Assembly (NCBI RefSeq): GCF_014805525.1
Contig: NZ_JACFSZ010000001.1
Coordinates: forward strand, 62,001-126,000
DNA length: 64,000 nt
Origin: Rhabdothermincola sediminis
GTDB taxonomy: Bacteria > Actinomycetota > Acidimicrobiia > Acidimicrobiales > Acidimicrobilacustridaceae
Reading direction: 5' to 3'
Part shown: positions 23,871 to 28,067 of the stretch, in pieces
Layout: each line of letters begins with the position of its first letter
Numbering within the stretch: position 1 is the first letter of the stretch
Notes under the pieces: model-generated
Database searches by the model: none
What the model was told of the DNA's origin: nothing
What the model saw: the letters and a program-made list of their open reading frames with translations, nothing else
Position numbers and translations under genes: made by a program

Positions 23871-24449
23871 ATGACCCCCGTGACGGAGCTGGTCGCCCCC
23901 CTCGCCATCGTCGCCGGGGTCGTCGCGGTCGGGGGGGCGATGAAGATCGCCGACCCCGGCGCCACCCAGGGGATGCTCCGAGCGCTCGGGATGCCCGCTG
24001 CCCCCTGGCTCGCTCGCGGCGTCGGCCTGCTCGAGCTGGCTACCGGCCTCGCCGCCGCGCTGCTCGGCGGCCGGGTGGCATCAGCCGCCGTGGCCGGCCT
24101 CTACCTGGTTTTCGCCGCCGTCGCCTGGCGGCTGGTGCGCGGTGGGCAGGCCTCGTCGTGTGGCTGTTTCGGTCGGCTGTCCGCCCCCGCGACGAGAGTC
24201 CACGTGACCGCCGACCTCACCGCCGGCGCCGTCGCCGCCGGGGCCGCGGTCGCCGCCGCCCCGGGGTTGGCCGGGCTCGACGCCGGCGGGCCCCTGCAAC
24301 AGGTCACGCTCTTGGCCCTGGTGGCCGTCGGCACCTGGCTCGGGGTCGCCATCCACACGGTGTTGCCGGCGACCCTGGTGTCCGCCCGCCGGGTTCCGGC
24401 GCGGGCCGCCGTGCAGGAGTTCCGCATCGGCCCGCCCGCCGCCCGATGA
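23871..24449 (+). CDS. MauE-type (DoxX-like) membrane protein
   Basis: A 192-residue protein with four to five transmembrane helices. The segment SSCGCFGRLS after the second pair of helices is the conserved CGCFG motif of the MauE family, thought to supply reducing equivalents or disulfides for maturation of methylamine dehydrogenase light chain. Here it directly precedes a MauA-like cysteine-rich secreted protein and a MauD-like thioredoxin-fold protein, so a disulfide-forming or isomerising role for that protein is a reasonable inference. The ATG at 23871 is followed immediately by the first helix. Confidence 0.85.
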   Translation: MTPVTELVAPLAIVAGVVAVGGAMKIADPGATQGMLRALGMPAAPWLARGVGLLELATGLAAALLGGRVASAAVAGLYLVFAAVAWRLVRGGQASSCGCFGRLSAPATRVHVTADLTAGAVAAGAAVAAAPGLAGLDAGGPLQQVTLLALVAVGTWLGVAIHTVLPATLVSARRVPARAAVQEFRIGPPAAR

Positions 24450-24474: not shown

Positions 24475-26667
24475 ATGACCACCAGGACGCCACCCTCCAC
24501 CCGCTTCGCCGACACCGTCGCTCGCTACCTCGGCCGGCGCTTCGACCGCCGAGGGTTCTTCGCCCGCTCGGCAGTGGTGGGCAGCGCCTTGGCCGTCAAC
24601 CCCGTCACCTACGCGCTGCGGCCCACCACGGCGTACGCCGCCATCTGCAACTGCAACGGCTCCAACTGCGACTGCGGCGCGCTGTGCTGCGACGGCTACA
24701 CCGAGTTCTGCTGCACCCTCACCGGGCAGAACACCTGTCCGCCAGGCACCCTGCTCGGTGGTTGGTGGAAGGCCGACGGCACCGCCTTCTGCAACGGGCC
24801 CCGCTACTACATGGACTGCAACGCGCCGTGCAACGGGTGCGGCTGCGGGGCCAACGGCATCTGCTCGGGCTCCTGCTCGGGCACGGGCTGTGGCTGCGCG
24901 CAGGGCGACTGCAACAACCGCAAGTCCGGCTGCACCATGTTCCGCTACGGGCAGTGCAACCAGCACGTGCCCTGCCTGGGCCCGATCGTCTGCCGGGTGG
25001 TGACCTGCGTGCCGCCCTGGGCCATCGAGCCCTCCTGCACCACGACCCTGCGCATCGACCAGGCCACCGCCGGCCACGACCGGCCCTGCCTGCACCGCAC
25101 GGTTGGTTCGCTCGACTCGGCGGTCGAGGTCGCAGGTGGGGTCCGGGTGCAAGGGTGGGCGCTCGACTTCGACACCCAGGAGCCCGTCGACGTCCACGTC
25201 TACGTCGACGGGCGCTGGGCGGGCCAAGGCCTCGCCGACCGATCCCGCCCGGACGTGGGCGCGGCGTACCCCGGCTACGGGAACGGGCACGGCTACGACC
25301 TCACAGTGCCCGCCCCCAGCGGCGGGGTGCGCAACGTGTGCGTGTACGGGATCAACAAGGGCGCGGGCTCCGAGAACGCGCTGCTCGGTTGCCGCCAGGT
25401 GCGAATGGCCAACCCCTTCGGCTCGCTCGACGGGGTCGCGGTCGGAGAGGGCACCATCCGCCTGACCGGGTGGGCAATCGATCCCGACACCACCGGACCG
25501 GTCACGGTTCACGTCTACGTCAACGACAAGTACGTCACCCAGGCGATCGCCAACCGCTCCCGCCCCGACGTCGGTGCGGCCTACCCCGGGTACGGAAACC
25601 AGCACGGCTTCGACGTCACCTTCCCCTTCGGACCAGGACGGCACCGGGTGTGCGTGTACGCCATCAACGTGGGCGACGGCACCACCAACCCGCTCATCGC
25701 CTGCCGCACGGTGGAGATCGGCGTCCCGTTCGGGTCGCTCGACTCGGTCGCGCCCGGGCCCGGGCGGATCGCGGTGGGAGGCTGGGTGATCGATCCGGAC
25801 ACCGTGGCGCCCACCCAGGTGCGGGTGACCGTCGACGGCCAGCTCGCAGCCACGCTGGACGCCGACCTCGATCGACCTGACGTGGGCGCGGCGTACCCCG
25901 CCTACGGCTCCCAGCACGGCTTCGCCGGCACCGTGCCGGCCACACCAGGGACGCGCCAGGTGTGCATCAGCGCGGTCAACATCGGGCCGGGTCCCGACCC
26001 GCTCATCGCCTGCCGCACCGTGAACGTTCGGTCCGGCAACCCGTTCGGCTCCCTCGACGGCGTGGCCGCCGGCCCGGGGGTCGTGAAGGTCTCGGGCTGG
26101 GTGCTCGACCCCGACAGCGACTCGCCGGTGACGGTGCACGTCTACGTCGATGGGCGCTGGGGCGGGCAGAGCGTGGCGAACCAGCCCCGGCCGGACGTGG
26201 CCGCCGCCCACCCCGGCTACGGATCGGCGCGGGGATTCGAGCTGACCCTGCCCGTGGCCGCCGGGTGGCGGGAGGTGTGCGTGTACGGCATCAACATCGG
26301 TGCCGGTACCACGAACCCCCTCATCGGCTGTCGGAGCGTCTTCGTCGGCGGTGCGCCCTTCGGTTCCCTCGACGGCGTCGCGACTGGTGTCGGGTCGTTG
26401 CGGGTCACCGGGTGGACGATCGACCCCGACGTCGCCGGGCCGATCAGCGTGCACGTGTACGTGGACGGCCGCTGGGCGGGCCAGGGACTCGCCGATCGCC
26501 CTCGCCCCGATGTCGGCGCCGCATATCCCCTGTACGGGCCGAACCACGGCTTCGACCTCTCGGTGGCGGCGGCGGCAGGGAGCCGACAGGTGTGCGTGTA
26601 CGCGATCAACAGCGCGGGCCACGAGACCAACCCGCTGCTCGCCTGCCGCCGGGTGGTGGTGCCATGA
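24475..26667 (+). CDS. Tat-exported MauA-like cysteine-rich protein with five C-terminal repeats
   Basis: A 730-residue protein. Residues 1-52 are a twin-arginine signal (RRFDRRGFFARSA, then a hydrophobic stretch). Residues about 53-200 hold some 26 cysteines and the segment QNTCPPGTLLGGWW, resembling the light chain of methylamine dehydrogenase (MauA) around its first cofactor tryptophan. I see no clear counterpart of the second tryptophan, so a TTQ cofactor is doubtful. From about residue 210, five repeats of roughly 100 residues follow, each starting GSLD and carrying GW-x-(I/L)D, VHVYVDG, RPDVGAAYPGYG and VCVYAIN motifs. The large subunit gene and mauG are not adjacent. It is exported folded or cofactor-loaded and likely cell-surface or secreted. 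Confidence 0.8.
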   Translation: MTTRTPPSTRFADTVARYLGRRFDRRGFFARSAVVGSALAVNPVTYALRPTTAYAAICNCNGSNCDCGALCCDGYTEFCCTLTGQNTCPPGTLLGGWWKADGTAFCNGPRYYMDCNAPCNGCGCGANGICSGSCSGTGCGCAQGDCNNRKSGCTMFRYGQCNQHVPCLGPIVCRVVTCVPPWAIEPSCTTTLRIDQATAGHDRPCLHRTVGSLDSAVEVAGGVRVQGWALDFDTQEPVDVHVYVDGRWAGQGLADRSRPDVGAAYPGYGNGHGYDLTVPAPSGGVRNVCVYGINKGAGSENALLGCRQVRMANPFGSLDGVAVGEGTIRLTGWAIDPDTTGPVTVHVYVNDKYVTQAIANRSRPDVGAAYPGYGNQHGFDVTFPFGPGRHRVCVYAINVGDGTTNPLIACRTVEIGVPFGSLDSVAPGPGRIAVGGWVIDPDTVAPTQVRVTVDGQLAATLDADLDRPDVGAAYPAYGSQHGFAGTVPATPGTRQVCISAVNIGPGPDPLIACRTVNVRSGNPFGSLDGVAAGPGVVKVSGWVLDPDSDSPVTVHVYVDGRWGGQSVANQPRPDVAAAHPGYGSARGFELTLPVAAGWREVCVYGINIGAGTTNPLIGCRSVFVGGAPFGSLDGVATGVGSLRVTGWTIDPDVAGPISVHVYVDGRWAGQGLADRPRPDVGAAYPLYGPNHGFDLSVAAAAGSRQVCVYAINSAGHETNPLLACRRVVVP
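25102..26661 (+). repeat. five tandem protein-coding repeats (about 310 bp each)
   Basis: The DNA encodes five successive copies of a domain of about 100 residues, beginning at GSLD near 25103, 25420, 25732, 26046 and 26362. Protein motifs are strongly conserved while the DNA copies differ, so this is an old domain duplication rather than a recent DNA repeat. Each copy ends in a conserved (L/I)xCR pattern with paired cysteines. Similar repeats occur in secreted proteins of other actinobacteria. Confidence 0.8.
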
Positions 26668-26695
26668 GCCGCGGCGCCGGGAGGTCGAGCTGATC

Positions 26696-27520
26696 GTGGT
26701 GGCGCTGGTGATCGCCCTGGCGGTCGTGGTGGCGCTGCTCGGGGTGCTGGTGGTCGGCCTGCTCCGCAGCCACGCCGAGATCCTCCGGCGGCTCCACGAG
26801 CTCGGTGCCGGTGTGTACGACGACGACGAAGCCCCCGGTGAGGAGGGTGGGGTGCGGTCCCCGGTGGTGCTGGGTGACCGGGACCGGATCCGCACCCGCG
26901 ATGGGGTGGCCGAGCCCCGGCCCGACTCGACCCCGGCCCACGACCTGGCCGGCACGACCCCCGACGGTCGGGCGAAGGCGGTGGGAGTGGTCGGCGCGGC
27001 GCACACGACGTTGCTGGCCTTCCTCTCCACCGGGTGCGGCACCTGCGCCGACTTCTGGCGAGCCTTCGCCGGGGGGGAAGCCGACGAGCTGCCCGGCCGC
27101 GACACCCGGCTGGTGATCGTCACCAAGGGCCCGGAGGAGGAGAGCCCCGCCGCGGTCGCGAACCTCGCACCCGCCGGCCACGTCACCTTGATGTCGAGCC
27201 AGGCGTTCGCCGACTACGGCGTGCCCATCAGCCCGTACTTCATCCTGGTCGACGGGCCGGAGGGGCGGATCGTCGGCGAAGGCGCGGCGGCCACCTGGGC
27301 TCAGGTGGCCAACCTCCTGCGGCAGGCAGCCGGCGATGCGGGCCTGGGGTCGGGCCCGCCGGGTACGGCACGCCGGCGCGGTCGGCTCGACGGCCCGGCC
27401 CGAGAAGCCCGTGCCGATGAGGAGCTGCTGCGAGCCGGCATCACCCCGGGGCACGCCAGCCTCTACCCGGACCGGATCGTGACCGAGCTGGCCTCGCCGG
27501 AGGACGAACACCCCGGATGA
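26696..27520 (+). CDS. MauD-like membrane-anchored thioredoxin-fold protein
   Basis: A 274-residue protein with an N-terminal membrane helix (VVALVIALAVVVALLGVLVV) followed by an extracytoplasmic thioredoxin-like domain. The redox motif is CGTC in LAFLSTGCGTCADFW, near residue 115, and the cis-proline loop is YGVPISPYFILVD. MauD proteins are required for correct disulfide formation in MauA. The gene lies directly after the MauA-like gene, supporting a dedicated pair. The start is uncertain: GTG at 26696 lies 11 bases after GGGAGG, and no ATG is in frame. The C-terminal 60 residues are an arginine-rich tail. Confidence 0.8.
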   Translation: MVALVIALAVVVALLGVLVVGLLRSHAEILRRLHELGAGVYDDDEAPGEEGGVRSPVVLGDRDRIRTRDGVAEPRPDSTPAHDLAGTTPDGRAKAVGVVGAAHTTLLAFLSTGCGTCADFWRAFAGGEADELPGRDTRLVIVTKGPEEESPAAVANLAPAGHVTLMSSQAFADYGVPISPYFILVDGPEGRIVGEGAAATWAQVANLLRQAAGDAGLGSGPPGTARRRGRLDGPAREARADEELLRAGITPGHASLYPDRIVTELASPEDEHPG

Positions 27521-27557
27521 GTGGGCGGAGCGGAGCTGAGTAGGTGGAGCGGAGCAG

Positions 27558-28067
27558 ATGAGACTCGAAGGATTCGGCCTGGCTGCCACCACGCTGCGGG
27601 GCTGGGACGGCGAGATCTACCGGCGCGACGCCGAGGCAGCCCTCACCCTCGCCGGGGGCGGGAGCGACCGGTCCCCGCTGAGCGGCGGGGCGCAGGGTCC
27701 CGGCGAGACACCCACCCCGATCCTGCACTTGGCGAACTTCCCCTTGCCCGCGGTGCGCGGCGACTACGGCGGGGGGGCGGTCGAGCTCATGGGTCGGGGC
27801 GGGGTCTTCATCTCGTTGCTCGAGCACGACCCCGCCGAAGCGTCCACCGCACTGTTCCGACACTCGGGGATCCCCTGGCCGCTGCGGGAGTCCGACTTCG
27901 ACCCTCGCCAGATGCAGCGCACCATCAGCGGGCAGGCGGGCTGCCAGCGGTTCTTCACCCACGCCGGGCGGGCGTTCTGCCTGTACGTGGCGATCGGCAG
28001 CTACGTGCTGCGATCGGTGCTGGTGCCGGAGGTCAACGCCGCGCTGGCCACCGTCGAGTTCGGCTGA
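27558..28067 (+). CDS. conserved hypothetical protein of the Mau-like cluster (169 aa)
   Basis: No known family recognised. A soluble alpha/beta protein without signal or membrane segment, with two cysteines (SGQAGCQRFFTHAGRAFCLYVAIG). It starts at ATG 27558 with GGAG about six bases upstream and lies 37 bases after the mauD-like gene, so it is probably the last gene of the four-gene cluster. The segment LEHDPAEASTALFRHSGIPWPL looks like part of a folded domain. A role in processing or regulating the MauA-like protein is guesswork from position only. Confidence 0.65.
   Translation: MRLEGFGLAATTLRGWDGEIYRRDAEAALTLAGGGSDRSPLSGGAQGPGETPTPILHLANFPLPAVRGDYGGGAVELMGRGGVFISLLEHDPAEASTALFRHSGIPWPLRESDFDPRQMQRTISGQAGCQRFFTHAGRAFCLYVAIGSYVLRSVLVPEVNAALATVEFG

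Follow-up and report, generated by a model that had tools for sequence, protein, structure and literature searches.

What would the maturation proteins of methylamine dehydrogenase be doing in a genome in which the enzyme itself cannot be found? The question is raised by four forward-strand genes in a 64,000-nucleotide stretch of Rhabdothermincola sediminis DNA (contig NZ_JACFSZ010000001.1, positions 62,001 to 126,000; “the window” below, in whose numbering coordinates are given): a MauE-like gene, a gene for a cysteine-rich protein with a predicted twin-arginine translocation (Tat) leader, a MauD-like gene, and a fourth gene, orf4, in that order. MauF, MauE, and MauD are thought to make or correct the disulfides of MauA, the light chain of the dehydrogenase. 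The answer that we consider probable is that in these bacteria MauF, MauE, and MauD form a thiol relay for the folding of a wall-tethered protein rich in disulfides, with selenocysteine (Sec) inserted at a UGA codon in the MauF of most relatives.

A Five-Gene Module Across Actinomycetota

The conserved cysteine-rich part of the exported protein, called the head below, was found in 52 of the 247 class genomes (with strong matches in 51), in 31 of 397 genomes of the phylum, and at 252 sites of the genome collection, the best 80 of which are mostly labelled Acidimicrobiia or Actinobacteria; none was found on plasmids. Since the head recurs in so many class genomes and its gene set is conserved with it, the arrangement in the window is not a chance one. 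Among 112 non-redundant head loci, orf4 and a MauD-like gene are each present in 100, a MauE-like gene in 91 plus the window, and a gene for a MauF homolog in 81, and the order of the genes varies widely. The module is also present at 20 of 20 loci outside the class, except for genes lost at contig ends. Within the class, orf4 is present in 50 of the 51 head-bearing genomes, and strong MauF matches, unlinked copies included, in 49 of 51 versus 3 of the 196 others. The window genome has its mauF, in the Cys form, on another contig (C19), so that the association of head and MauF does not depend on adjacency alone; no conserved gene was found among the neighbors of unlinked mauF copies. Together, the four window genes and the unlinked mauF make up a module of five genes whose distribution spans Acidimicrobiia and extends to other Actinomycetota. 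Strong MauF with no head found was seen in three draft genomes (G158, G172, G191) that are 80–94% complete, reflecting either loss or missing sequence.

An earlier, sequence-only reading of the locus had grouped the four window genes and suggested looking for their co-occurrence in actinobacteria. They are indeed conserved together, and MauF with them; that reading missed this third mau maturation gene, unlinked in the window genome, and overlooked the interchangeable tails and the selenocysteine MauF of relatives described below.

By profile and motif, the module has all three of MauF, MauE, and MauD but neither MauB nor MauG. The MauE-like membrane protein (23871–24449, + strand; 192 residues), whose gene lies just outside the interval 24475–28067 covered by the earlier reading, matches PF07291 with 53.5 bits against a cut-off of 27 (expect value, E=3.9e-14), and its family profile matches MauE of Paracoccus denitrificans (E=1.9e-7) and no other protein of the mau regions. 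It contains SSCGCFG; CGC[FLYW]G is found in 81 of 84 relatives, and Paracoccus MauE has DCGCF. The MauD-like protein (26696–27520, + strand; GTG start), membrane-anchored and of thioredoxin fold, has no Pfam match, and its family profile finds MauD of Paracoccus (E=2.7e-8) and Novosphingobium (E=1.4e-10) and nothing else notable in those mau regions; the cysteines of its CGTC motif, C114 and C117, are invariant in 44 relatives. The kinship to MauE and MauD claimed for the flanking genes is thus supported. For MauF, comparison of the family profile with Paracoccus denitrificans MauF in hhalign gives E=7.9e-11 over 148 columns, and this is the only match among 28 proteins of two mau regions. The motif, LLSTWSPCGYSSISLL in Paracoccus MauF and RSTWSP[C/U]GxSMLS in the family, lies outside the aligned profile and is therefore a second sign of kinship. 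A second MauE/DoxX-type gene in the window genome (G000:C15:27501-27863; L031, L225) has a higher PF07291 score than the one in the window.

The mau cluster of Paracoccus denitrificans is the closest parallel: F, E, and D are homologous, sharing the redox motifs STWSPCG, CGCF, and CxxC, and in both systems stand beside a small, Tat-exported, Cys-rich protein. The module differs in having no mauB, mauG, or amicyanin gene, in its extra orf4, in a MauF that is often unlinked or of the TGA/Sec form, and in a substrate fused to variable tails. Like the CcdA/DsbD thiol carriers, MauF is a membrane protein, and 8 of 38 MauF-like proteins give weak DsbD_2 matches (best E=3.8e-7); most, however, match nothing, and the aligned part of the MauF encoded in the head operons (operon MauF) contains a single conserved Cys position at most.

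A Selenocysteine Signature in MauF

MLSSI initially looked like the N-terminus of operon MauF, but in frame upstream of this are a helix, the residues RSTWSP, and a stop codon. All 88 matched loci have TGA as this stop, among them that of Acidiferrimicrobium sp. IK (L151), and TAA and TAG do not occur; the codon aligns with the Cys of homologs including Paracoccus MauF. Nine copies of the same pattern have a Cys codon (TGC or TGT) instead; among further loci, inspected by profile, most proved to have Cys and one (L073) had TGA. In all, about 27 copies other than those with TGA have the Cys form.

The sequence after the TGA is constrained beyond its coding. A first hairpin, GATGCT-N4-AGCATC, is present in 57 of 57 class sequences and a second, CCGCTC-GGN-GAGCGG, in 55 of 57, versus 8.5% and 4.3%, respectively, expected when synonymous codons are reshuffled. 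One stem pair is changed in compensatory fashion, from C-G to T-A, in nine sequences, and outside the class most sequences have CTCCCC-GGTC-GGGGAG in place of the second hairpin. For the Ser encoded within the first stem, all 75 TGA copies examined use AGC versus two of nine Cys copies, and all nine Cys copies lack the full second hairpin. Published rules for bacterial selenocysteine insertion sequences (bSECIS) call for a loop of 3–9 nucleotides with G in the first two positions, a stem of 4–16 base pairs, a distance of 16–37 nucleotides from the UGA, and a minimum free energy of −7.5 or lower; the second hairpin conforms, its GGN or GGTC loop lying 33 or 29 nucleotides after the UGA and its stem having 6 base pairs (complete in 71 of 75 copies), and the 45 nucleotides following the UGA have minimum free energies of −13 to −26 in 75 of 75. 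A search of four operons against Rfam gave no match.

Genomes with the TGA form also carry components of the machinery for reading it. SelA was detected in every one of the 30 verified TGA genomes versus 138 of the 217 other class genomes (p=4.6e-6, Fisher test, relatedness ignored; 168 of 247 exceed the cut-off), and full-length matches to the selenocysteine tRNA (tRNA-Sec) of at least 57 bits occur in 26 of the 30; weaker hits occur in every genome, including controls, and are read as cross-matches to other tRNAs. The window genome, with its Cys-form MauF, has no SelA and no strong tRNA-Sec match. The SelA of another genome with Cys-form MauF (G162:C418:1666-3024, L246) scores far above those of all other class genomes (E=2.9e-181) and is perhaps a transferred or contaminating gene. 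Internal TGAs in head, MauD, MauE, and orf4 genes were considered as further Sec codons and dismissed as gene-end, upstream, or off-frame stops, except in one draft genome, G544 (L202, near a contig end), where a TGA stands at the position of head Cys79 (WTAF-TGA-CTINQ). This genome also has a TGA MauF, and the head TGA could be either Sec or an assembly error.

Is this family already known? A 2026 review catalogues 119 prokaryotic selenoprotein families, and MauF and its motif are absent from it (PMC13188914). MauF resembles those families in having a UGA at the position of its homologs' redox Cys, a bSECIS-like hairpin, and Sec machinery in the same genomes, but the table of families contains neither MauF nor the motif SPUG, a rhodanese/DsbD fusion, TsoB, being the only entry vaguely near (PMC13188914). 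The deep-Sep paper does not mention MauF, NCBIfam of June 2026 has no model matching it, and no open-access literature joining selenoproteins with Acidimicrobiia was found, although other papers or unpublished catalogues could hold it. Sec-MauF is probably a new selenoprotein family.

The Cysteine-Rich Protein Compared with MauA

The protein itself (24475–26667, + strand; 730 residues) consists of a leader, the head, and a tail of repeats. The leader (residues 1–55, 24475–24639), of the form ..FDRRGFFARS..AYA, is of Tat type, and both arginines of its RR pair are invariant in 51 of 51 relatives, supporting the export predicted earlier. The head (residues 56–207, 24640–25095) also bears out its first description: 26 cysteines were counted in residues 55–207 (153 residues), a segment that includes CPPGTLLGGWW. 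Alignments of 51 and 48 relatives give as invariant 13 cysteines, GWW (96–98), R110, Y111, D114, FRYG (156–159), and R174, among other positions, and AlphaFold models the head with confidence (predicted local distance difference test, pLDDT, 92.1; predicted template modeling score 0.86). The gaps between the window genes are 25–37 bases, suggesting a single transcript. The last of these genes, orf4 (27558–28067, + strand; 169 residues, no leader seen), could be assigned to no known family; its AlphaFold model (pLDDT 90.3) is weakly PsbP/Mog1-like, with Foldseek matches only to Tsi3, MTC28, MucB, and PsbP, all weak (E at least 0.045).

Is the head a MauA-like light chain, as proposed? By eye it shares with MauA a Tat leader, many cysteines, and, in the same order, CPPGT followed by Trp, YxxDC, and CxC, and the Trp aligned with MauA Trp57 is kept within the invariant GWW. 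It differs in having about twice as many cysteines, in the absence of Trp108 (the FRYGQC region has no Trp), and in giving no significant match to the PF02975 family by Pfam (none of 48 head members), mature-sequence profile, or Foldseek. W97 and W98 are the only invariant tryptophans; W182, though common, varies, which leaves no invariant partner Trp and agrees with the earlier remark that the second cofactor Trp is not obvious. The full-length head matches MauA in hhalign with 94.7% probability, which was rejected as proof of homology: the score comes mostly from the Tat leader, the leader of E. coli TorA does no worse than a typical head leader, and the mature part alone reaches 2–4%, with 5 of 150 column shuffles scoring equally well. 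A search of PDB sequences with the head gave no match, and structure comparison, proposed as a check, did not bring out a likeness: Foldseek with the AlphaFold model gave 32 PDB matches, none meaningful and none MauA, its sensitivity for so small a fold being uncalibrated. Homology of the mature head to MauA is thus unsupported as stated, although the Trp57 counterpart stands.

The predicted absence of MauB and MauG extends beyond the neighborhood: PF02975, PF06433 (MauB), and PF03150 (MauG) have no match in the window genome (3.29 Mb, 100% complete), less firmly for the first two because, unlike PF03150, they had no positive control genome. Among the 397 phylum genomes, classical PF02975 gave one sub-threshold match. 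Of the suggestion that a light-chain scaffold has been reused without MauB and MauG, the second half is supported, while descent from the MauA light chain is not shown. The position of the head beside MauF, MauE, and MauD would fit a MauA-like maturation client, its membership in the MauA family being a separate matter that these comparisons leave unestablished.

The five repeats described earlier (25096–26664; about 104 residues each, of the form GSLD..GWxxDPD..RPDV) are present, 49–58% identical to the first, but not all versions of the system have them. By simple patterns and rough counts, some twelve of the 109 relatives compared have GWxxDPD repeats; other tails have GDWNGDG or GYWLVASDGG repeats, SLH, CWB2, LGFP, ricin-type lectin, or other domains, and a few relatives are nearly tailless. 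As several of these tail families bind wall or sugar, the simplest reading is that the tail serves as a surface tether while the conserved head does the work. The repeats belong to no Pfam or PHROGs family and were not found in phages; identification with a known domain was rejected, the candidates being WXXGXW in Pfam (E=0.1), weak NCBIfam cross-hits, and a weak amidase match, and a repeat profile gave nothing useful. The amidase match is to a portion of a protein of solved structure (8c4d, E=0.037); the repeats also cross an anhydro-N-acetylmuramic acid kinase model (E=9.7e-5), perhaps through a shared wall-binding module.

A Putative Thiol Relay and Its Alternatives

How might these parts work together? 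After export by Tat, the head protein would be held at the cell surface by its interchangeable, often wall- or sugar-binding tail. MauF (STWSP[C/Sec]G), MauE (CGCF), and MauD (CxxC), which is anchored and thioredoxin-like, most likely form a dedicated thiol/selenol relay across the membrane, making or correcting the disulfides of the head, of which there may be up to 13 in the window protein; MauE has previously been thought to act in disulfide formation, the role of MauD being unclear (PMC7794033). The protein encoded by orf4, a gene conserved with the head, may assist the precursor as a chaperone in the cytosol while it is still unfolded. The MauF of most relatives would receive Sec at UGA through the bSECIS hairpin, the window organism using the Cys form. 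Computation shows that F, E, and D are kin to their Mau namesakes, that the genes co-occur, and that the Sec signature exists; the relay and its direction, the chaperoning, and the surface location are what we infer. The head may be a structural shield, a binding protein, or a redox protein.

Several points weigh against this scheme. All of the evidence is computational; a second conserved Cys is missing from the aligned part of operon MauF, so its electron path is a guess, and the surface location is deduced from leader and tail domains. The selenium claim concerns relatives, MauF of the window organism having Cys. The SelA association was tested as if genomes were unrelated, four of the 30 TGA genomes, all drafts, have no clear tRNA-Sec match, and a further TGA genome (G188, 79% complete) has tRNA-Sec but no SelA match.

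Other explanations can be set against the same data. The head could be a true MauA relative with a new protein-derived cofactor (Trp98 in modified form, with Tyr158 or Trp182 as a possible cross-link partner), acting as a redox enzyme or electron carrier and not only structurally: the full set of MauA-type maturation genes, the MauA-like order CPPGT-W-YxxDC-CxC, and the invariance or near-invariance of non-Cys residues in GWW, FRYG, RYY.DC, and the CPPGT-type segment all fit, but the genome has no detectable MauB, MauG, or PF02975 protein, no second Trp is invariant (W182 is Tyr or absent in several relatives), and the mature head is unlike MauA by profile and Foldseek. This seems unlikely, and distinctly unlikely is the version in which a Sec-MauF/MauE/MauD relay serves a MauA-derived surface protein with its own Trp-derived cofactor, an extracellular redox enzyme or electron carrier operating without MauB or MauG.

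An ordinary stop at the TGA of operon MauF, with the first helix lost or separate and translation restarting at a conserved Met, draws some support from an ATG three further codons past the TGA in nearly all copies, but is hard to reconcile with the in-frame helix and RSTWSP upstream in all copies, the exclusive use of TGA, the constraint on synonymous codons, the compensatory stem pairs, the presence of SelA in 30 of 30 genomes, and the Cys of homologs at this site; we consider it highly improbable. Equally far-fetched is a pathway resembling those for ribosomally synthesized and post-translationally modified peptides (RiPPs), with the Cys-rich protein as substrate of MauE/MauD modification: such a role has been proposed for Streptomyces mauE clusters (one also with mauD) found beside precursor peptides of at least 8 Cys (PMC7794033), but the Cys-rich part in the present case is a domain of some 150 residues that is folded (pLDDT 92), Tat-exported, and fused to large tail domains, and clustered neighbors include no recurrent peptidase or RiPP enzyme family. 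The Streptomyces clusters could themselves be small relatives of a MauF-MauE-MauD-type folding module.

If a thiol relay serving the head is accepted as the probable reading, what would it mean? Methylamine dehydrogenase and its cofactor have so far made it difficult to single out the functions of MauF, MauE, and MauD; a trio kept with another Cys-rich client, without MauB or MauG, points to oxidative folding as its core job and offers a clean system in which to test this. Existing annotation is expected to split or truncate the TGA mauF genes. The Sec form directly marks the likely catalytic residue of MauF, the Cys of STWSPCG, and, if confirmed, would add a selenoprotein family in a membrane thiol carrier.

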